DNA of 64,000 nt from Ectocarpus siliculosus (lineage: Eukaryota; Sar; Phaeophyceae; Ectocarpales; Ectocarpaceae), in the NCBI GenBank assembly GCA_000310025.1, contig FN649734.1:711762-775761 (forward strand), given 5' to 3'. Under the pieces are notes generated by a model. It ran no database searches. It saw nothing but the letters and a program-made list of their open reading frames with translations, and was not told the DNA's origin. Every line of letters starts with the position of its first letter. The first letter of the stretch is position 1. Below, in pieces: positions 21,301 through 64,000 of this stretch. Made by a program: the position numbers and the translations under genes.

Positions 21301-24300
21301 CAAGCATTGGACTGGATGCGGCCTGCCCGTCAAGGACAGCGACCTTGCCACCCTACGCTGCTGCGGCGGACAGCGACCTAAACCACGGATATCCCTCCTC
21401 CGCTCCTCGGTCGCCACCAAAGAAGGTCTAGGTTTCCTGCCCCCCCCCCCCCCCTCCTGGCAGACCTACCCAAACTCTCCTTGTAAGAAACGAACATCGG
21501 CCAAAAAAAGCTCACAAGTACGGGCGCGTTCTGTGCCTCACATTTTCCTTGAATCTACCGCCGGGTGTACTGGGCGCAGGCGCCGACAATCGTCGAGTAT
21601 GTTGTCATCTGCCTACAACGAGAGCATGGCATGTGTTCTTTCAGCGGGTACATGCTTTGAGGATTGCTTCGTGTTGTTGTTGCGGTCCGCTGACGCAATG
21701 CTGTTCATGGACGTGTCTCGGTCTGTTTGTTGACCCAGGTGGGGCAAGACTCCACCGCCCTCTTGAACGTTGTGGAGCAGAGAACGGTCGACGAGCGTCT
21801 CACAGCGTTCCAGGAAGCCAACCCCCAGGCGAGAATCGGAGGCGAACAGGGAGAAGATGGTGTTGTTGCTTGGTTGGTTGGTTTGTAGCTGATGCTGGTG
21901 GTGCCGGACGCTCACGGAAAGCAGAAGAGAGAGAGACACACACACAGACAGGGAGAGGAGGGGGGGGGGGGGGGGGGNNNNNNNNNNNNNNNNNNNNNNN
22001 NNNNNNNNNNNNNNNNNNNNNNNNNNNNNNNNNNNNNNNNNNNNNNNNNNNNNNNNNNNNNNNNNNNNNNNNNNNNNCCCCCCCCCCCCCCCCTTCTTGG
22101 CAGACTTACCAAAATTTTCTTTAAAAAAAAGAAACTTGGGCAAAAAAAAGTTCAAAAGTAGGGGCGGGTTTTGTCCCTACCATTTTCTTGAATTTTCCCC
22201 CGGGGTGTATTGGGGGCAGGCGCGGACATTGTTGGGTTATTTTTTATTTGCCTTAAAAGGAGAGCAGGGCATGGTTTTTTTAAGGGGGTACATGTTTTGG
22301 GGATTGTTTGGTTTTGTTTTTGGGTTCGGTTGACCAAATGTTTTTAAGGGAGGTTTTTGGTTTTTTTTTTTGACCCAGGGGGGCCAAGATTCCCCCCCCT
22401 TTTTGAACGTTGGGGAGCAGAGAACGTTGGAGGAGGTTTTCAAAGGTTTCCGGAAACCCAACCCCCGGGGGAAATTGGGGGGGAAACAGGGAAAAGAGGG
22501 TGTTTTTGTTGGGTTGGTTGTTTTGAAGTTGATGTTGGGGGTCCGGGCCGTTCAGGGAAAGCGGAGGGGAGGGAGACCCCCCCCCAGCCAGGGAGGGGGG
22601 GGGGTGTGGGGGGGGGGAGACAGAGAGAGAAAGAGAGGACACAGAGAGAGACAGAGGGAGACAGAGAGACACAGAGAGACAGAGAGAGAGGCAGAGAGAG
22701 ACAGGGAGAGAGAGGGAGGGGTACAGAGAGGGCTGTCGGCAGGCAGACGCATCATTGTCAGTGTATCGCGTACTGGAACGTATCTGGCAACCCCCCCTCT
22801 CTAAACTCACCCGCGTTTATTTGTTTCACGCACCCGCTTTCTTCAATCTATTTTCGTGCTCTTATGTCAAGTCAAGTCAGTTCTTTGTGTCTCACGAAAA
22901 AAAATTTCTTCACTTTACGTTTTTTTTCAGGTTCCGATCCCCGAATCCTGGCGGCAGCTCCTCCTGCTGGGCATTTCCACTCACCACGCAGGTACACGGT
23001 GCCTCCCCCCCCTCCCCCTCCAGCTACGATTTCGGGGCGTACGCTCTACGTTGCCTCCGTAGATAACTCCCCCCCCCAAGCCGTGCTGAAAGCAAGCGAT
23101 TTGAGACACCCGGTTTCGACTCACTGACAACGGTACCGAGTCGAGGAGCAGTGTTCCGTTGGAATTGGACACCATGGGACGTTCCAGGTAGTGGGGCACG
23201 ACCCTATAGTAGCGCCTCCCCCTATCGAGCTCCGCACTATTTTTTTGCGCGACTTGGTGTTACGTATCGTGCATGCACTGTCTATATAGTTTCAATTGTA
23301 TACCGCCACTGATTGTGTGACCTGGCGCCTTGTCTTGGCCGTATTTCTTGCTGCCACTGATTGTGTGACCTGGCGGTGTAAACACCCTTGTCTTTAGCCG
23401 TATTTCTTGCTGCTCCTGTGTGGTGTGCCACGAGACAGGTCTGCTTCCGGTGTTTAAGTCTTTCGTCGAGGAGCTCTTCGCCGAAGCACTTGTGAAGGTG
23501 ACAACTAGTGGTGAATCCACGGACCCCCCCCCCTTTGTGATCACCCCTCTCGTTTTGGTGCGGTGTGGCGTAGTGATGTTCTCGGCGTTTTTGGTGGCCT
23601 GGCGTTTAGCTCGGTGACTTCGTGTTACGCGTTCGCCTACGGAGTGTCTTGAGAGTTTAAGTCGGCGAGGATGCCCTCAATTCAGGCGAGGGTGCCGTAC
23701 GGTGCCGCAAAAGTCCCCCTCCCTGAGACGTGGAGGAACCGTTTGGCTGAATACTTGACAAAGGTTTCCATTTCCTTTTCGCCCTTTTCTGAGAAAACAT
23801 ACACAGAGTGTTTCCCCTTGTTTATGACCATCCTTTCCACGTTGACCTGCCTTTTTTTTCGAGTGAAAACGAGTTGAGACGGTTATTGGATACAGTCCTG
23901 TTCCTGCGCCACCCGCTTTTTCTCTTAGCCGGAAAGCTCCCCATCCATGTGGGCGCGACCATCGTGTGCACTTCGCAATGTCAACCGTGGATGTCATAAC
24001 GCAAGCGATTACTGCCGGAGCGGTCAGGCACTCTTCAAAGGTTACGTTGTCGCCTTACTAAAATATGTTGCGCGTTCAATTTGTTCGTGCTTCGGAACTA
24101 ACTACTATTTATTTTCGTCCTGGGGTTACTTAGGTGGTGTTTGCGACGGAGACGCTGGCCGCCGGCGTCAACATGCCCGCAAGGGCCACCGTCATAACGA
24201 CCCTCTCCAAACGCATCGACACGGGTATCGTGAAGCTCAACCCCTCCCAGCTGCTGCAGATGGGCGGCCGGTACGCACCGAACGCATTCGTCTTTTAGAA

Positions 24301-51245: not shown

Positions 51246-51427
51246 NNNNNNNNNNNNNNNNNNNNNNNNNNNNNNNNNNNNNNNNNNNNNNNNNNNNNNN
51301 NNNNNNNNNNNNNNNNNNNNNNNNNNNNNNNNNNNNNNNNNNNNNNNNNNNNNNNNNNNNNNNNNNNNNNNNNNNNNNNNNNNNNNNNNNNNNNNNNNNN
51401 NNNNNNNNNNNNNNNNNNNNNNNNNNN
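51246..51427. other. Assembly gap (182 N)
   Basis: Run of undetermined bases. Unlike the 100-N gap at 21978-22077, its odd length suggests an estimated gap size. A perfect palindrome begins 36 bp to its right, so hairpin-forming repeat DNA may have blocked sequencing. Confidence 0.95.
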
Positions 51428-52313: not shown

Positions 52314-55300
52314 ATGTCGTACCCCACGAAGAAGCCGCACGGGAGGTCCTCAGGTTGGAGCCAGCCTCGGGCAGATTTGCAGCCTCGCCCCTCCGTACGG
52401 CTGAATACCAATGGTACAGCAGAGGATGTTTGGCTAGAGCCGGTGGCGACTGACCAGGGCTCGACTGACCAGGGCTCGACTGACCACAGCTCAACTGACC
52501 AGGGGTCGTCTGAGCAGGTCTCGAGTGCTTCCGCGGAGGTGAGAAACTAATTGCTGTGAGGCACAAAAAAATAATGAATACGGCGGTACATGGTATTTTG
52601 GAGACTATCGAAAGAACATTGTTTGGGGGTTGGTTGTTTTAGCCCTATTTGTGAGGACCTCAGCGTCATGTGAGTACTGCGTGGAGTAATCGCCTCCATC
52701 CCCGACATGTGCTTTTGCGGCTCCGGCCATTTCGCACAACATAAACCCACCGTCTCCTTCCTTCCCATTGCACTTCATTTTTTGATAGAGATTCGTAGAG
52801 GACGTTGGCGGCCTTGGCCCGAGGGCGGAAATCCAGGACATGATCGCCCAAAGGGGTAGCGTGAAGTCCGGGCTCCAGGGAATGATCGACACCAATCCCG
52901 TGTTGGTCATCGCTACCAGCACCTGCCCCTTCTGCGTTGAGGTACGACACGACGCCTTCGGTTGTTGAGGCTCTTCAGTCGCGATTTTTGTGTAGTCGCT
53001 TGTTACTCATTGTGATTCCCTCGACCGCGGAACTCTGAAATGTTTGAGTTTTTTTCTCCACCTTGCTGCTGCTGCTACAGTTGATTATACATGGCTGCAT
53101 CGTCCGTGGTGTCCTCGCAGCACGCACGCGCTTGCTTTTGTTTTTTTCATTTAACGATTTCGCCAACATCTTCCCGCATATCCATTTTTTGCAGGCCAAG
53201 CGTGCCCTCGCCGGCCACGGCATCACCGACCAGTTCGTTTACATCGATCAGGTAAGCAGCCGTTGACTCTTCTACACGAGCTGGTTCCTTGGTGCAGGGA
53301 AAACGATCCAACTGATGGCCAACGCTGCTCCCTCGAAGCGCGCTTGAAATCTCGTTGTTTGCCCTGCCTACCTCCCCTATGCATGCACTAGTGGAGGGTA
53401 TCATGAGCTATCCCGTGCCCTATCTCTCTCCCTTGCCGTGTCCGTATAGATTTTGTCCAAGCATTGGGCAGTCGATTGTGATCACACGAGCCAGACCCCA
53501 CAGAGTTACGGTCCCGCGTCCCTCAACGTTAGAGTCGTTCTTGGTTACGAAACAAAAACTGTTTTTCGGGGTGTTGCACAAGTATGTAGAGAGCAACAAC
53601 GTGTACAAACCGACTTCGATGCAGACAGCCCTAACTCTTTCGAGCACAGGTGGAATCGCCGTACCTGCGCCCCGACCGTCGCGGTGCTACCCCGTGCTTT
53701 GTGATCCCACTCGACCGTGACGAGACGAGCCATTCGACTTATCGTAGTTACAACCTCCACGTTGTTGGTTTGTGTGTGCTTCGCCTCATGTATTCTGGTG
53801 CCAGTGTACACAATGCGGAGCATAATTGGGGGCATCACCTGGGGTCACAAATTTTCCAGTTCATGGTGAAATATAGTGTTACCTTCCTGTTTACCGTCCA
53901 CCTGCTATCTGTTCGCATATTGACTTCAGGAGCCCAACACCGCCGAGATTCGGAAGGCCATGACCGCCCTTGCAGCCAACCGCACTTCGGTGCCCCAAAT
54001 CTGGATCAACCAGAAGCACGTCGGGGGTTGTGATGACCTCAAGGTACTTGAGAAACTCGGTTGTTGGGAACAGTCAAGGTCAAGTCACTATAATAGCATT
54101 TGAGCACCTACCAGGGTATATCTCCTATGGAGTATTTCCGGAAAACTCGTCAGTGGTCGGATCATTGTACAAGTACACACCTACGGGCGTGCTATAAACC
54201 ATGACGAGTAGGTATACATCGGAGCTTTGTCCTGCAGGATATTCTTGCAACGTTACATGGATATTCTTGTAACATGACGGTAAACCGATCACGGTAAACC
54301 GATGGTTCATTACAATGATATTCTGATACCGTGATCGGTGCGTTACAATACAATAACACATGTGTGTTTCCTTTCCGGGATGAGGATGGATGGCTCGCCC
54401 CCGGACCCGCCGCCCTGCCGCGCCCGCAGAAGGAACAACGCACGTGCCTCCATGACCTGTTTCTTCATGCCGTACATGATGCGGTCGCGGTGGTGGTGGT
54501 ACTCGCCCCCCTTCTCTCACTCTCCCTTTCATTTCTTCCATGCGTCTGTCAAGGCCCCTTGGTTCTTTCAAGGTCCTTCGTGACTCTTGCGAGTCTCGGG
54601 ACTCTCTCTTTTCGTTTCCTCTCGGCCAACGAAGCGCCCATTCAAACAAAAAACTGTACTTTTGTCCCTCTGTGGGCCTCTGCACACTGTTCGACACAGT
54701 GACCTTTGCTAGATACAACTAAGCAAGGTTTCCATATGTACCAAGATACAAGTTCAGTCCAAAGGTTCTGAGCCTTTCAGGTTGTACTGTACTGTATACC
54801 AACAAACGGTAGGAGGGGTTCCCCTTGTTGACAAGCGTATCATCAAAGTTCGATGAGCAATGCTGCCGTCATGGCGCAGCTTGCTTTTAAAACAGAAACG
54901 CCGAGCATTTGCAACTTATTTTTCACGTTGATTGCTCCACGTTTATGTTCAGTCCGAGTCGGAACATTAACATTTGTCAAGGCCGCGACCTTTATTTTCG
55001 TGGTGCTCTCGGAGCAGCTAGTCAGTGTAGCCATGAGCGACGTCGTGGGAAGTCACTATTCGGGTAACACCTACGATATTCTCAGCTCTCCATCTAGTAA
55101 CCGTTGTTCTAGAAGCTGTCGGGTCTTCCTGCTAATGTGGTCGCCTCTGGTTTTGTAATGCGCGCGACAGGCTCTTGATAAGACAGGTGACCTGGGAGTT
55201 GCTCTGGAAGGGATACCCCGCCCTGCTCCGGCGTTCGATATTGAGTCCGGCCCGGGCCCCGAAAAGGTATTAAAGTATTGTTTAAGAGAGCCAGTCGAAC

Positions 55301-55347
55301 TGTACGCCAACAAGGCCATGGAGGCGATTCTCTTGGATGATTCGTGA
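52314..55347 (+). CDS. Dithiol glutaredoxin with N-terminal repeat extension
   Basis: Glutathione-dependent disulfide oxidoreductase. Five exons, 52314-52538, 52789-52941, 53195-53251, 53930-54043 and 55171-55347, all phase 0, give 241 residues. Start is ATG at 52314 (MSYPTKK). Residues 1-75 are a polar extension with five TDQGS-type repeats. The glutaredoxin fold begins near residue 110 with NPVLVIATSTCPFCVE (active site C-P-F-C, variant of CPYC), then ALAGHGITDQFVYID, TSVPQIWINQKHVGGCDDL (TVP-type glutathione-binding segment and GGCDDL), and ALDKTGDL. A ~45-residue tail after the fold is unusual. Two alternative ends exist. Reading through the 54043 donor would stop at 54103 and lose ALDKTGDL, so it is disfavoured. 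A donor at 55266/55267 is phase-compatible with the DUF4395 exon at 55627, which would fuse this protein to the next gene. Confidence 0.88.
52449..52523 (+). repeat. Five 15-bp coding repeats (TDQGS) in the glutaredoxin leader
   Basis: Units at 52449, 52464, 52479, 52494 and 52509 encode TDQGS, TDQGS, TDHSS, TDQGS and SEQVS. The first two are identical at the DNA level; later ones have drifted. The segment is polar and probably disordered. Confidence 0.9.
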
Positions 55348-55483
55348 TGTGTATCTTCACAGCAGAGAGTTGCGAGCATATGAACACGCGAGAGGACAAC
55401 GGTGACTGCTGTACGTTTTTACGTGTTTCTTACCGTGCAGTCGAACTTGGCGGCACAGTCACTTGCTCTGAGCTCATTTCACG

Positions 55484-56454
55484 ATGGATCAGTCCATTCG
55501 AAGCGTTCTGGATCCATGCGGCACTGTACGACATTCTCGACGTAAGGTCTTGTTCTGATCGTCGACGTGCTTTGCCCGGGGTCCCCGCCGTCCGTTGTGC
55601 TGTTACGCGCACGTTTCCCCGTGCAGTCGCCTGCAGACGTGGATGCCGCGGTCAGTACGTACCCCGGCCCCACCGCGGCCTACTTTCCCATGTTCCACGC
55701 ACCCATCTCCGTCGACAACCGCGCGGTGAGGCTGGGCGGGAGCCTGACATCCATCTACGCGGCCGCGTGCGTGGTCTTCGCCGAGCGCTACGTGACGTCA
55801 TGGGTGGTGAGCTGAGCTGTAGCTCCCGATGCGCTGACCGTCTGGGATGCGTACGGTTTGAAAGTGTTAGTTCACTGAATGTTAATCGAGGGATAAGGAT
55901 TTCACACGCGAAAAGCGACAAGCCTCCGAACGGGGTCTACCGTTGTTCCGTCAGCTGCAACCCTACCCTCGGAGTCGGCACAATTGAACCGCGGGGGGGG
56001 GGAGGGAGGGGAGGGGTAGATGCCAGAACGCTTGAGAGGTTGGAGCTGCCGAGCTTCCCTGGGGTTGTGGGGAGGGGGGGGGGCTGCGTCAGTAACCTCC
56101 ATCATTATCCAGGTGATGTTGTTTATCCAGGTGATTTTGATCAAGTCTTTTTCTGCGGGCCATGTCACTCGACGTGTTCTTGTTGGATGTGCTACTCAAG
56201 GTGCCATCCTCCCCTCAACTTGCCTCCAATGCCTGACGCAGCTGTATGCGCATTCCTTCATAGTTTTAACACCCACCCACCTATCCCGCGTCCCAGGTAT
56301 TGGGCATGTTCGTCAGCAAAACCCTGGACATGACGGGCTTGCCCGGCCCTTACGCCTTGCTCGTCAAGCTTCCTTTCGCGGGAACGAAGCCGAGGCTCCA
56401 GTGAGTGTTCCCCCTAGCAATCGCCGTTCCACAAGCTTTGATATTTATCATGCC

Positions 56455-56501
<47 letters not shown>

Positions 56502-59500
56502 CACTCCCGATACTTGAAACGTTCATCCTTCGGCGACGCACAACTTGATCGTCCCATATAAGCTTGGTGATGTGCTCGGCCCACTAAGTTGTGCCATGCC
56601 CCCGGAAGCAGGCGCCGAAAACTCCTGCATTTGAGTGCATGTTCTTTGTCGTTGTGGTGTTTAAGGGCCTTTCGCAGTTCGGGTGTGTTGAGCCTATTGA
56701 GCAGCCCCTGGCAAGGAATGCGGTATACCGTACATTGTGAGGAAGTACCGCAAAAACCTGAAATGTTGGTAGCCCAAGAAACATTCGGCCCATGCTGTGG
56801 CCACAACAACAATGGGGATAACCAGGAACATTGTGGTATGTACGTTGGGGGTACGAACGTTCGGATCGCCCGGTTCTCTACCTGTTGCAGGGGACGGCAT
56901 GCGTGTCGACCACGATGGCAGGCACAGAACGAATCCCCGTCGCCCCCTCTCCCATTTCGCCTCTCACGCATTGTACGACGCTTTAATTCCTTCACACGTT
57001 GTCCGGTGATGGTGGCCTAGGTCCGGACCCGCGAGGCAATTCGCCAACTTGTGTGGCATGATATTCTCTGGCGTCGCGTATGCAAGCCTCCTCTGTGGAA
57101 AACCCACGGGAGCCCGGGTCATGATGGTGAGCTTCCCGGTCCGCCCACGCGGGAATGTACCTCCTCCAAGCATGGCGTTCCCGCCCGATCAAACAAATCG
57201 ACCAGCCACTTCGTCGTGCCTTCGAAATTGAACCGAACACCTCTGGGGAGGAAAAATTCCACGACACGGATGGGTCACGGGAACTAGAAATTGACGGGGC
57301 AAACGCCACCTTACGCCGCCGATGCGAAGATCCTGTGCGGGACACGCTGTTGTAGAACTGCAGCATATGTACACAAGTATAGACACTGAGGCCCCGTTTA
57401 GCCAGCGTCGTCAAGACCCCGTTCAGTCAGCGTCCTCAATTTCCGCACGCTTGCGATTGGTCCGGAACTCGCCGCAGGGTATCCTGAGCGTCGCGGCGTT
57501 CCTTCAGGGTGCGTTCAACTGGTGCGGCGGCTGTTTCGTGTTCGGATACATGTTCAAGTTCAACCTTGTCTCCGGTGCCATCTACCGTCTCCACGTCAAC
57601 ACTCGGTATGTGTGGTTGTTCGTGCTGTTTTTTTTGTTGTTTCATGGCTGTGGCTGTGACTGTGGCCTGCTGATCTTGTTGCTACCTTTGCTGATTGTCA
57701 GGTAGACGTACTGAGTTGAAACCTTTTAGAGAGCTTTTCGTCGCGATCGTATCGATTTTCTCTCTTCCATCAATGCGTGTCGAACCTTGGCACTCTTCCT
57801 CCAAGCCTAACTTCAATTAAATTAAGGGTTTGTAGATGTTCGGCAGCAAACCTGTTTCTCCCCGCACTGGCAAGATTTCAGGCCATTCTGCATGACCCTA
57901 CAATACTCTGAATAAAGGCTGGATTACCTAGCTTGCAGGAGCAACCAACTACTTCCTAGTATCGACTGACGCTGAACTGCATCCTAAGAGAAAGTACCAA
58001 AGCGTCTAGTTACAGCGGGCGGGCGAGAGCCTCCATGCACCAGTCCCAATCGTAATCCCCGTCTGAGTCGAACTTCGCGCTTGGGCAGTTGACTCAGAAA
58101 TTGATCTAGCATAAGGAAAGCCCCCCCTCCCTCCGTGAAACTTGGCATTCGCCGCCTCCGCCATTTCAGGGCGGACACTCTCTACGCGTGGGATGAAGCA
58201 AATCTCCGAACCGGGAAGGATGTCGCCCCGGAATCCATCACGTACCGGACCAAGGTTAGACTTTGGTTTGATGTTGAAATACACGCCTTTTTTTTGCTTT
58301 AACGTTTCTTTTCTGTTTCTTGCTTCCTGGACAGAATCCAGGTTTTGAAGCTTGATGATTCTGCACGTCTGCTCCACGCCAGACATCAAACATTTTTCAC
58401 GAGTACCAATCACCCTACTTCCGAACATGCGTGTCCGACGTTCTATCGATGAAAAAACACCATATAACAAAGGGAGCAATGTACCTCATTTGACGATTCC
58501 TGTCGCCATTCGTGGTGGCGCAGGGACTTCCTCCCAACCCGACCGATCTTCGCGCCAGGCCGTACGACTCCAAGGACAAGTGGCAGCAGTTCCACATCAT
58601 CAAGTGTGAGTTAACCTCCCCGCCTTTTCGGCCCGACCTTATTGGGTGCTTCTCTTCGTCGCCACGAGCCGAAGGGCAACCCAACACCGCAACCCGAAAC
58701 CATTTCTGAGACAGCATGTGTTCTTATTGAACCGATGAAGAGTACTTGGTCCTCCGTGCGAAGCACTTCCCATGCCTCGAGAACCGCGCGTACCACTGTT
58801 TCGGATCCGCACTCATTTTGCTGTCGTCGTAGTCCGCGTGTTTCTAGCCGCGCCAGGAGAAAAAACGTGTATCCGGAAAATCTTGAGTATCCCGGTTTCC
58901 AGCGATCGGGGCCAGAGATACCGCCGACTTGCACTTGGTATTTTCATCCGGCGGCATGTCGTAGATTCGAGGACTTCCTAATATTCCGAGCAGATCATGT
59001 TTTCTCTGCATGTCACACAAGACGCGGGTTCCTGGATATATTCCGGCAGGACTTGACGCCTTTGAGATTCCTGTGTAGGCTCTGATTACTGTAACAATGG
59101 CGAAATTGAAGAAAAGCATCTATCTCTCGGCTGACCGATATGCGTGCCTTTCTTTGCCGTTACACTCTTCGATTCTACCACTTTCTTTCCCACCGAGCAG
59201 ACGTCCACATTACACTTTTCATGGCGCCTCTAGCCATTCTGGGACTCGCGCTCCCTTGGGCAAAGCTGCACGACACGGTCGGCACGTCTCCCCTCGTCTG
59301 GCAGGTATCAAGCTCGGACATGCGCCGCAAAGCGCTTTCGTTCACTTTCGTGTTGCCGGCATTGCTCTCTTTAGACTCATGAATATTTTGGTTGTGGAGG
59401 AGCTGTTGATGCTCCTAAGATATTGGCAGTGTAACAATAGTGAAGAAACTGCCACGATTTCAGTCGCGTCTGTGTCTTGGGGGTTCTGCGCTCTGGAGCA

Positions 59501-62500
59501 CAGACCCGGTTTCTTTTGGTGCGCCAACATCAAAAACATCAAATTCGTGGAGTCCTTGGGGGGGGGGGAAACTCCGCATGGCGTGGACGCCATCTGTTGC
59601 AAGCTAATCGCGACACCGACTTTGATTTTTGCCCGAAATCGGGGTTTCAAATGCGCAGGTGCTAGCTTGGACGGGTGTTGCCCTTCAAGCCGTACTCGGG
59701 ACTCTGTACTTCACCAAGTGCGCTCTGTACCCGAAGAAGGTATGAAGCAGGTGTTGCACCGCGTTGAGGTCGTCAAAATGATCTAGAAACCCCACCGTCT
59801 ACCACAGCCCGCGTTGAAAAAATGCAATTGTGCCTTCTCTGGATGCCCGTAGTACCGATGAGAAAAACTTTGCTTCATGTCGTTCGTGGAACCAGGTGAG
59901 GAAGGAGTGGTGCCACCCCATCAAACACAACATGTTTGCGGTCCCGTTCATCAGCTTCATCATCATGTCCTTCCTGGCCACCAGATGGTCCAGCGTCAGC
60001 GGAGACCTGGCGCGGGCCTTGTTTTGGATCGGCAGCGCTCCTCTCAACGCTCTTGCTCTTTACACCGTCGCCAGGTATTCGAGTTTAATAATTAGGATCG
60101 TTTCTATATATGTATACCCTGGATTGCATGCGAAGGTTCAGTTGCAGGCGAAATCCCAAGCGTCTCATTCAATGCCTGTGGTGCATTGGTTTTGGGATGT
60201 GGTTCATTTCCGCGTGATTGCCGGCGGAGTATGTAGCATCGATAACTTCAGATTCAAGCGAACGTCCAAGTTCGTTTCTCCTCTACCCCCGCCTCAAACC
60301 CTCAGATTGGCTTCTCTGCCCCCCCTCCGGCCCCACCAATCGCATTTGTCACACGTGCGCGTCCGTTCCAATCAATCAGCTGGATCGCCATCCGCCGCGA
60401 CCAAGAGTTCGTCAACCCGACGTGGATCCTTATGCCCGTGGGAAACCTGGTGGGAGCCATGGCCGCCAGGGCAGTGGACGGGGACTATGCAGAGTGGGGC
60501 TGGTACCTGTTTGGGGTGGGCGCCTTGCTGTGGCTGGCGCTGTGGCCGATCACCTTCCTCATGGTGCGAACTACAATACTACAGGCTTCGGTCCTAACAC
60601 AGACTATGTTTTTCGGCATGAGGCTTTCGGGCACCGCCGGCAGAGTGCCGTGCTTTGGGTTGGATCTTCTCTTGCCTAGGGTAGCTGCTGTGAATCTGGC
60701 TTCCACGATCCTCTGCGTTTTGCGCTCTCCCTTAGAAATTCACGGTATTCATGCCCTCCCTCTACCCTTCCTCCGGCCTGGGTCTGTCTCTTTCTGCGAT
60801 TTTATATATGTCTGGAAAAGACCCACGGGACGATCCTCATGCCCTTTTCCCGTTCCCTCCGTTGCTTGTTTTCTGGTTCCCTTGTCTGCCCGATTCGTGT
60901 ATATTTGCACCAGTCTATCGACAACCACCACAGCGACCCTAACCGCCGCAACTTCTACGGTATTTGGGTGGCACCTCCGGCAGTTGCGATGATGGCGTAT
61001 GCTAACCTTAGCGGTCTCAGCTCCATCGACAACGTACAGCGCATCTTGTTCTGTGAGTACGAGTGGAATCCCAATCATCCGTTACTGTTCGGAGCCTCGC
61101 GGGGTTCCCTGTGTATCTACGCGTATCAGCATGAACCAGTTTCCTTTCTCTCCGTCGGCCGAGCCACAAACTATCGATGTCGCCTAAATTGACCAAAACT
61201 CCGCAGAAACATGCACGGCAATTGTGTCTCACCCATCAACTAGTCGGCATGACCCAGGAGTGTCTCGGGGTTCAACGCAACACATTTTACCGTAGCAGGA
61301 CACGCTCCTAGACGTAAGCCTATCCCTGGCGAATATTGTTGCACCTTAAGCCCAACTCGGACACCCTTGTGCACCCTCGACACCTGACGACAAGCCTTGC
61401 CTCCGTGTGTCCGTCTCTCTCTCTCTCTTTCAGACGCTTCACTTTCGATGGCCATGGTCCTGGCAATGTCCACGTGGCCTCTGAACTTCTTCGTGGGGGG
61501 CAAGTTCGACATGTCCTTGTTCGCCTTCGCCTTCCCCCTCGACGTGCTCGCTTCCGCCGCAATCACCGTGTACGGCTATACCCAGACCGACACCATGCAG
61601 GCAAGGATAGGAGCATTACCTCCCGCAGGGACCCTGGGTGCATTGCCTTCCACCAAGTCTTGACAAATCACGATTACCTCACCCTGAAGAAATCATTTAC
61701 CGATGTAGGACGTGTTTTCCGTCGACCAAATTGGCTAAACTCTACCTACTTGCACCGCGCGAACATCGTAAGTTGTGGCTTAGCCACGGGTCTTTGTTGC
61801 CCCGACACCATGGGTACATGGGAACCCTTTATTTTCCATGTTGACGATCCTGTCCCTCTGTTCGACCTTGCCGTGGCCGTACATACCTCCCACAGGTCAT
61901 CAGCATCGTGGCGATCACAGTTGCATCCATGGTCAACGCCGTGAACGTGCTCCTGCTGCTGGGGGCCGTGAAGGGAAAGCACGTCTTCACGCCCGAGGCT
62001 AAGTTTTCGCCGATGTCCTTCACGAAGCTCACGCACGAGGTACGAGACGACGTGGGGTTAGGTAATTTTCTCGTGAATTGGCAGCCGAGTTAGGCGGTTC
62101 CATCGCACCAATGTCTTCGGTTTTAGCCTGTGAACACAAAATACGCCCCCATCAGTTGGACCAGAATAGGTTTTAGAAGCCACGATTCAGCTTCGATATG
62201 AAGACAAATCGCCGAAACCCGCACCACCTCGGTGTCTTACTCACGTTGTTCAAACTAACCACGGAAAACAACCAACACCCTCTGCGACGGGTAATCTCCA
62301 GGCGTTCCGCGAAGCTCTGCCGAGGTTGGAAAAGCTGGCAGCCCAGGTCAAACCGGGCGCGGCGGGCGCGTCTAAGCTCAGGGAGGTTGCCTCCGCGTGG
62401 GAGGCCATATCGAAAGCCCACGACGTCCACTCCAGGCACGAGGACGAGGTCATCTTCCCGACCCTCGAGACGTACTTCCCCGGCCAGGTGGGTGAAGTGA

Positions 62501-64000
62501 TGCCCGAGCGAAAAGGCTCCCCATCGCTTCGTGAGAGAAGCGTGCTTGCAACTTGGACGAGGAGACACTTGACGACAAGCACAGACGCCCCTCTTTATCG
62601 AACGACACGACTGGGTTGGGATTTCATGTGGGACATCCCGTGCGGCGTTCAAATGTTCCATGGGACGCGTGGGACGCCCCCACGGGCGGGTCAGAGGCGG
62701 ACAGTTCGTGGAACGCGTACAATCAATCCCCTCTTTTGGCTCCCTTTCTCTGAATGACGGCGCAGAACTGAGGATGTCATTGCGCATTTCATTGAAAATA
62801 GTTGGGCATAGATGCGCGAAGGTGGTACCGCGAACCACAGCAAGCCGGCATTGCAACAAGTTGCGTCGTTCGTGTCGGGGATTTTGGGTAAGGGGAGGGG
62901 TGAGTGTGCCTTCTATGGATACGTACCCATCCCCAATCGATTGTGCCCTTCCGTGCTTCATTCTTCTCAATCTCGCCCCCCACATTCCGATCCTCCATGT
63001 ACTGTTTTCGGGTACGACCAGACTAGCACCGTCGGTGACGACCACAAGGAGCACGAGGAGCTGATCCACGCTGTACAGTCGGGTTTGAACTCTCTGCTCG
63101 GCAGTGACGGCCTGGGAAAGAAGACTGAAGCAGTATCTGCCAACCTCCTGGAAGAGCTCAAGGCCAACATTAGGAAGTTCGGAAAGGAAGTGCGCGAACA
63201 CATGGACAACGAGGAGCACTTTTACTCCACTCCCGTGACCCGCAAGGTAAGGCATATCGTTGGTGTTGCGGGAGAGCTATGTGGTTCCTTGCGCATAGAC
63301 ATTTTTCATTGTTCTGGGTGCTTATAATGTACCACGTGATTCTCCAAAACTTGACAACGTATGGGATGTTGCTAAGGGTTATCGATAGGTATTTCTCTCT
63401 CCCTCTCCCGCCAGCTCGCCACCTGCCTTACCATCTTCCCCCTTTCCTTTCTCGACTCTTTGCAAACAATGCTGCCGCCCATTCTCTAGTTCCTGAATGT
63501 CACGATTGCTAAGGATCTGGCCCGCAGGAGCTGGGATGTCACCCCCAACCCGGAGATGTCGGAGTTCCTGCGCTGGGTTATGTCCTCGCTACGAATTCGG
63601 GGCCAGAGGGTAAGTCGTAGCAGGCATTGGTTGTTGGAATAGAGTTTCCTCAAATATAATAGTTTGCTGAGCTGGTACAGATATACGTGCTTCCAACGTG
63701 GTTCTATACGTTCTACCGCAGTCTTTTTCGCAGCTCCGTAAATGCCAAGTTTGTCTGACGACGGCCCGGACGCAGAGAAGGACTTCCACACGAAGGGAAG
63801 GGCGTGGATAGTTGTGGCAGACTACTGCACTCACGGTGCAAACCCCCCCGATGCCCCTCCTGCCCCTGACACCGGTTCTCGCTCCCACACCAGACAAAGT
63901 TCCTGAAAACCTGGGTTTGGGCCATGCCGGAACGCGCTCAGCTCGTGGGTTTGATGGTGTATCGCGTCGTCGATGACGTCACGTGGGTTCAGCTGGCCTA
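55484..64000 (+). CDS. DUF4395 - TDT/SLAC1/TehA anion channel - hemerythrin (HHE) fusion (3' end beyond window)
   Basis: Eighteen exons: 55484-55541, 55637-55806, 56297-56400, 57021-57126, 57478-57605, 58170-58254, 58524-58605, 59201-59304, 59659-59739, 59896-60074, 60380-60563, 60914-61052, 61434-61600, 61896-62039, 62302-62487, 63022-63246, 63490-63609, 63894-64000; about 790 residues, every junction phase-matched. Residues ~20-190: DUF4395, four hydrophobic segments, with NRAVRLGGSL and FNWCGGCF (C-x-x-C). A polar ~60-residue linker follows. Residues ~250-590: about ten membrane helices of the TDT family (TehA, SLAC1, yeast sulfite exporter SSU1), e.g. KEWCHPIKHNMFAVPFIS, NPTWILMPVGNLVGAMAA, FYGIWVAPPAVAMMAYANL and FAFPLDVLA. 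Residues ~620 on: HHE domain with the four metal-ligand helices LTHEAFREAL, HDVHSRHEDEVIFP, DDHKEHEELIH and EHMDNEEHFYSTPV, then the WAMPERAQLVGLMVYRVVDD extension seen in bacterial HHE proteins. The channel domain predicts anion (sulfite, nitrate, malate or chloride) transport; an O2, NO or iron sensing role for HHE is inference. The ATG at 55484 is tentative. Confidence 0.85.
56455..56501. repeat. (CT)n(CA)n compound microsatellite in fusion-gene intron
   Basis: About 22 bases of CT repeat followed by about 24 bases of CA repeat, in the intron between exons 56297-56400 and 57021-57126. Confidence 0.95.

Follow-up and report, generated by a model that had tools for sequence, protein, structure and literature searches.

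Gene structure and domain organization

The gene described here lies at the end of a 64,000-nucleotide stretch of the Ectocarpus siliculosus genome (contig FN649734.1; C9:711762–775761 of the 189-Mb genome), referred to below as the window, which was lengthened by 8.9 kb for the analysis. The gene model, assembled by hand, contains a chain of 18 exons on the forward strand that runs from 55441 to 64055 with consistent phases throughout; the 824-residue part spliced from these exons carries the Pfam domains DUF4395, SLAC1 and Hemerythrin, all above their cut-offs. Five exons further upstream encode a dithiol glutaredoxin (Grx), and the most likely architecture is Grx-DUF4395-TDT-HHE with about 1,013 residues. 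This length is obtained with the join of donor 55186 to acceptor 55441, on which the residue numbering rests.

The initial annotation had described a three-domain fusion of DUF4395, TDT and HHE in eighteen exons of consistent phase, and the Pfam matches and the in-phase exon chain bear out both statements. The acceptors of the 18 exons are all AG and the donors all GT, bar one GC donor at 61600 (61600/gcaagg). Breaks that would separate the domains, between 57605 and 59201 or between 62039 and 62302, were looked for and not found; the frame is continuous and the splice sites are ordinary. From 55627 onward, codon usage favours the assigned frame in each of the 17 exons, which is a consistency check only, because the codon model was trained on those same exons. 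The extent previously given to the gene overlooked the upstream glutaredoxin (52314–55266), and the stop codon at 64053–64055 places the gene end 55 bases beyond the window.

The start codon had been placed at ATG 55484, which proved to be in the wrong frame. Its translation, MDQSIRSVLDP..., has a coding score of −1.07, as compared to an intron mean of −0.62, while another frame of these bases reads WISPFEAFWIHAALYDILD and scores 0.08, above the 99% point of introns (−0.02). This ATG was rejected as a start codon on these scores. An in-frame TGA lies 9 bases 5′ of the ATG at 52314 with which the present model begins.

The upstream glutaredoxin and its junction with the membrane part

A dithiol glutaredoxin whose CxxC active site reads CPFC is encoded by the five exons spanning 52314–55266, all of phase 0 (PF00462; 56.3 bits, E 3.6e-15, profile 1–60 of 60). 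Its match to the glutaredoxin 3 equivalog TIGR02181 (73.8 bits, or 75.8 with exon 5) is under the cut-off of 90, and that to TIGR02180 (66.5 bits) is under the cut-off of 87.25. The CPFC, TSVP and GGCDD motifs are shared with dithiol glutaredoxin 3 and eukaryotic glutaredoxins; unlike these, the protein described here falls below both equivalog cut-offs, possesses an N-terminal extension and is fused to a membrane part.

We consider it likely that the glutaredoxin exons and the DUF4395-TDT-HHE exons belong to one transcript. Exon 5, which lies between the two groups, has a coding score of 0.16 in the glutaredoxin frame, rising to 0.22 in its later part, and its inclusion raises the TIGR02181 score by 9.0 bits, from 66.8 to 75.8; with the short form of exon 5 joined to exon 6, the score is 72.8. 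At least three in-frame joins between exons 5 and 6 are available (site scores in parentheses): donor 55186 (6.2) to acceptor 55441 (8.4), donor 55301 (4.5) to acceptor 55493 (7.3), and donor 55266 (7.0) to acceptor 55473 (−1.1). Only 174 bases separate the end of exon 5 from exon 6, a gap into which one gene's end and the next gene's start would hardly fit.

Several observations weigh against a single gene, a model drawn from genomic sequence. Exon 5 has a weak acceptor (1.1; rank 251 of 568). Intron 4, at 1,127 bases, exceeds all the other 21 introns (85–678), and an ATTAAA at 55269 follows directly behind exon 5; the glutaredoxin could, therefore, be a separate gene. Reading through the donor of exon 4 also furnishes a plausible glutaredoxin end (TIGR02181 70.9, a gain of 4.1 bits), and an in-frame ATG is present at 55347, ahead of exon 6. 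In that case, a small glutaredoxin gene would begin at 52314 and end at about 54103 or 55347, and a three-domain DUF4395-TDT-HHE gene would follow, with its start at about 55347–55441. This arrangement seems distinctly unlikely to us: exon 5 is coding-like and brings the larger glutaredoxin gain, whereas the exon 4 read-through is intron-like (−0.55), as are bases 55347–55440 whichever of the three frames is read (−0.61 to −0.63). A two-gene arrangement would also leave DUF4395 here without the thioredoxin-fold partner that bacterial DUF4395 loci, described below, predict for members with no tail CxxC.

Table 1. Features of the Ectocarpus gene and of an actinobacterial gene cluster used for comparison. 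Positions are those of the window unless a locus is named.
Feature	Position	Strand	Basis and remarks
Exon 1: ATG start and serine/threonine-rich N-terminal extension	52314..52538	+	donor GCGGAG/gtgaga; coding score 0.00, barely over the intron 99% point
Exon 2: glutaredoxin, active site CPFC	52789..52941	+	Pfam
Exon 3: glutaredoxin	53195..53251	+	Pfam
Exon 4: glutaredoxin, TSVP and GGCDD motifs	53930..54043	+	Pfam; also a weak match in the own-genome search (C9:765703-765783)
Exon 5: glutaredoxin C-terminal helix and linker	55171..55266	+	TIGR02181 gain, coding score 0.16; donor 55186 gives the shorter form
Exon 6: link to membrane part, frame ...ELISRWISPFEAFWIHAALYDILD	55441..55541	+	splice sites, coding score; exact 5′ boundary uncertain
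Exons 7-10: DUF4395, membrane CxxC	55627-55806, 56297-56400, 57021-57126, 57478-57605	+	PF14340
Exons 11-12: cysteine-free linker	58170-58254, 58524-58605	+	cysteine list
Exons 13-16: TDT/SLAC1 channel domain	59201-59304, 59659-59739, 59896-60074, 60380-60563	+	PF03595, SLAH3 match (exons 13-19 together)
Exons 17-19: TDT/SLAC1 channel domain, GC donor at 61600	60914-61052, 61434-61600, 61896-62039	+	PF03595
Exons 20-21: HHE hemerythrin domain	62302-62487, 63022-63246	+	PF01814
Exons 22-23: C-terminal tail	63490-63609, 63894-64055	+	stop 64053-64055 outside the window
Actinobacterial cluster: ScdA_N-HHE, Fe-S assembly, ferredoxins, HHE, TDT, NarG-like	L140 2422-9999 (G125:C3)		

The window contains two runs of N, at 51246–51427, some 0.9 kb before exon 1 begins, and at 21978–22077. 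In the lengthened sequence, a tandem array with a 111-base unit in about 9.5 copies (L001 3438–4530) lies about 2.4 kb past the stop codon of the gene, and a long open stretch that begins with MPKTSSQKRRDLRDEV... starts from about position 5990 of L001; by eye, it resembles a retroelement gag gene.

Probable pairing of DUF4395 with a second dithiol

DUF4395 is matched over nearly its entire profile (PF14340; 57.5 bits, E 2.3e-15, cut-off 24.5, profile 1–128 of 130). The CxxC motif previously noticed in its membrane part is indeed present as CGGC at residues 368–371; the next cysteine occurs only at residue 506, hence there is no tail CxxC. DUF4395 had been described as uncharacterised. This is fair, and the two open-licence PubMed Central (PMC) papers in which we found DUF4395 mention it once each and assign no function to it, yet bacterial loci suggest a testable dithiol role in which it is paired with thioredoxin.

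An initial set of 80 bacterial DUF4395 loci, near relatives of one another, came from a scan that used patterns of tail-type proteins, with a Tsukamurella protein heading the alignment. A second CxxC located 8–30 residues beyond the membrane CxxC (the tail) is present in 80 of these 80 loci and a thioredoxin match, neighbouring or fused, in none of the 80, and the scan of their neighbours returned no thioredoxin among the 25 of 28 families shown (47 of 54 candidate open reading frames (ORFs), 26 of the 80 loci) because all of the loci are tail-bearing.

Among 149 Actinomycetota genomes, 48 possess DUF4395 (52 matches), and 40 loci were examined, namely the top 20 matches and 20 of the remaining 32. 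Of the neighbour ORFs put through Pfam in two scans, 2 of 66 (79 called) and 9 of 78 (84 called) gave a thioredoxin match. A thioredoxin profile built from these loci found a match within about 1.5 kb in 28 of the 40, 22 in a separate frame and six in the same frame as DUF4395; for two of the same-frame cases, L122 and L123, Pfam confirms one and not the other. The same profile, applied as a control to 20 TDT loci of 5–10 kb, matched none. As the profile was trained on Actinomycetota loci, the count was repeated in Chloroflexota, where 88 of 201 genomes possess DUF4395; 50 of the 100 matches listed were examined.

Across the 90 loci from the two phyla, the membrane CxxC is present in all 90 (81 by script, nine by eye from printed ends). 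Thioredoxin only was found at 55 loci, a tail CxxC only at 29, both at none, and neither at six (L127, L129, L193, L198, L205 and L206, with L198 on a short contig piece). The corresponding split is 28 thioredoxin only, 10 tail only and two neither for Actinomycetota, and 27, 19 and four for Chloroflexota. Six apparent double cases in Actinomycetota were rejected; five tails were the active sites of fused thioredoxins, and one was misread. We attach no probability to this rule, since the loci are related by descent and some are near-identical (L125, L126). The rule is most simply read as a requirement of DUF4395 for a second dithiol, present in the protein itself or in a partner; the domain probably acts as a dithiol relay in the membrane, together with a partner of thioredoxin fold. 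The order winged-helix regulator, DUF4395, thioredoxin recurs in L126 1453–2378 and L138 1414–2438, and suggests a regulated redox operon.

The Ectocarpus protein, with no tail cysteine and with a probable N-terminal dithiol glutaredoxin, would fit the bacterial rule, which in turn supports the glutaredoxin as part of the protein. It shares with the bacterial DUF4395-thioredoxin pairs the membrane CxxC, the absence of a tail CxxC and, if the glutaredoxin belongs to the same protein, a thioredoxin-fold partner; it differs in that this partner would be a glutaredoxin, positioned N-terminally.

Elsewhere in the Ectocarpus genome, two DUF4395 exons score over the cut-off on C479 (337997–338197 and 354716–354931; L004 and L005), 17 kb apart, and two weaker ones lie on C8 and C25. 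The C479 pair represents the tandem duplication of a regular DUF4395 gene whose membrane motif is FCxxC. The gene described here was not listed by this exon-wise search, from which it follows that such searches miss split domains. A search of plasmids gave no match to the DUF4395 part.

The channel and hemerythrin domains

The TDT part is predicted to be a SLAC1-type anion channel. The Pfam match extends over the full length of the model (PF03595; 114.6 bits, E 6.8e-33, cut-off 27.9, profile 2–327 of 331), and the solved relatives detected by sequence are SLAH3 (1.6e-21), SLAC1 and TehA. A Phe-Pro pair, F713-P714, is shared by all 10 aligned sequences (10 of 10); F713 aligns with TehA F262 and SLAC1 F450, the gate residue of those channels. 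A crude hydropathy scan returned eight segments in the TDT part, for which ten helices had earlier been noted, and three in the DUF4395 part. Plant SLAC1/SLAH channels are regulated by kinases via their cytosolic tails. The TDT fold over the full Pfam model and the conserved Phe-Pro are thus held in common with the S-type SLAC1/SLAH channels and TehA, whereas the fused glutaredoxin, DUF4395 and HHE domains are not, and the score against the NCBI tdt subfamily (TIGR00816; 89.9 bits) is under the cut-off of 237.25.

Two further TDT loci in the Ectocarpus genome, on C30, resemble ordinary genes of the SLAC1 type, both by eye and in tblastn, which revealed no significant match to the other fusion domains there. 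No full-length relative was found in viral contigs, in a search with single-protein patterns that detects close relatives only. Among plasmids, 26 records have TDT-only matches, none of which covers 80% of the query. A 682-residue open frame around a Millisia TDT proved to contain SLAC1 only. The part of a report on algal TDT proteins available to us mentions no fusion (PMC3509319).

The C-terminal HHE domain had been called a complete metal-binding domain, and the sequence agrees with this in both its Pfam match (PF01814; 46.4 bits, E 6.8e-12, cut-off 25.3, profile 7–121 of 127) and its full ligand pattern. Four histidines and two glutamates occur in the expected order (H782, H826-x3-E830, H853, H905-x3-E909); presumably these are the metal ligands, and the domain is predicted to be a di-iron module. 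It is the sole HHE match found in the 189-Mb genome by an exon-by-exon search, which can miss weak matches. No solved relative of the HHE part was detected by sequence at E < 0.1. Known HHE sensors and repair proteins include FBXL5, BRUTUS and RIC/YtfE. The Ectocarpus protein resembles these in possessing an HHE domain with the full ligand pattern; it differs in that Pfam finds no F-box, RING or ScdA_N domain in it and in that the HHE domain is joined to a channel. With 22.7 bits against a cut-off of 204.7 for RIC (TIGR03652), it is not a RIC/YtfE protein. In a diatom, a hemerythrin that carries a CHY zinc finger is reported to be induced when iron is low (PMC5156380).

Genomic context and the candidate anions

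Two candidates emerge for the conducted anion: sulfite, or nitrate/nitrite. Besides thioredoxin, the ORFs neighbouring bacterial DUF4395 include TusA (three), TauE (one) and rhodanese (one) among 144 ORFs in two scans, counts that come with no background rate. Of 10 plasmid TDT loci viewed, one, from Thioclava, is in a sulfur setting with TauE/SafE, DsbA and DsbD, and one is unannotated. Oomycetes are reported to possess a glutaredoxin fused to PAPS reductase, the latter a sulfite-producing enzyme (PMC2705460). These observations favour tethered modules, in which the glutaredoxin-DUF4395 pair and the channel share a pathway, such as sulfite production and export, with no mutual gating. This proposal is tentative, and we place it somewhat below an even chance; it leaves the HHE domain unexplained, and the single TDT-HHE cluster that was found is of the nitrate-respiration type.

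That cluster occurs in the actinobacterial genome G125, where the TDT gene is followed by a gene for a NarG-like molybdopterin oxidoreductase; before it, in this 10-kb stretch, lie genes for an HHE protein, ferredoxins, an Fe-S assembly protein and an ScdA_N-HHE protein. ORF sizes and HHE/TDT positions in G103 are as in G125, and in G135 the TDT gene lies at a contig end. SLAC1 and SLAH3 conduct nitrate. The Ectocarpus protein might, then, be a nitrate/nitrite channel monitored by a di-iron domain that reacts with nitric oxide (NO). We regard this as rather doubtful, since the clustering is confined to one lineage, 2 (perhaps 3) of 19 TDT genomes, and the HHE domain is not of the RIC repair family. 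TDT scores over the cut-off in 19 of 149 Actinomycetota genomes, and the neighbours at 20 loci (103 of 113 candidate ORFs) are mixed, with LysR five times, Rrf2 twice and Prismane once; no common partner was found at these loci, with crude gene calling that took an antisense frame at some of them. The majority of the other TDT loci are in neither a sulfur nor a nitrate setting.

Proposed mechanism and significance

Taken together, the best explanation as a whole, to which we give an even chance, is one protein composed of a cytosolic glutaredoxin, a four-helix DUF4395 dithiol, a TDT channel and a C-terminal di-iron HHE domain. The channel, on our best reading, is physically coupled to a thiol relay and to a di-iron module. 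The glutaredoxin would hand glutathione-fed electrons on to the membrane CxxC of DUF4395, and the state of this relay, together with that of the di-iron centre (responding to O2, NO, iron or peroxide), would set the anion flow through the channel; the glutaredoxin, the linker and the HHE domain would all face the cytosol. The initial annotation, having overlooked the N-terminal glutaredoxin, overlooked the thiol side of this mechanism.

We infer regulation of the channel by the glutaredoxin/DUF4395 and HHE modules; for a di-iron sensor that sets channel opening, the initial annotation had made the same proposal. A fuller version, a redox-switched channel in one chain in which the glutaredoxin feeds an intramembrane DUF4395 dithiol touching the TDT pore, the di-iron domain reads O2, NO or iron, and the two jointly gate anion efflux, seems rather unlikely. 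Certain points count against the four-domain explanation. DUF4395 and TDT were not found as neighbours in the bacterial sample and lie about 36–47 kb apart in the three genomes for which their positions on a shared contig were compared; no channel or hemerythrin neighbour was seen at the bacterial DUF4395 loci scanned. A structure model of a bacterial DUF4395 member (predicted local distance difference test score 84.1) gave no match in the PDB at E up to 0.001, and no solved relative of DUF4395 was found by fold or by sequence. A second structural look at this model returned generic four-helix bundles only (best Z 8.6); VKOR, CcdA and DoxX-like folds were not among these matches, which excludes nothing.

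No description of this architecture was found in a search of open-licence PMC papers; protein databases may already contain an entry with it. The bacterial comparison yields a concrete hypothesis for DUF4395, hitherto without a known function, namely that of a membrane dithiol protein needing a second dithiol, its own or a thioredoxin's. If the four domains are one protein, thiol-redox and di-iron inputs would converge on the same anion channel, and direct redox control of a SLAC1-type pore becomes testable. Should DUF4395 generally act as a thioredoxin-linked transmembrane dithiol relay, it would join DsbD/CcdA and VKOR as a new kind of thiol conductor.

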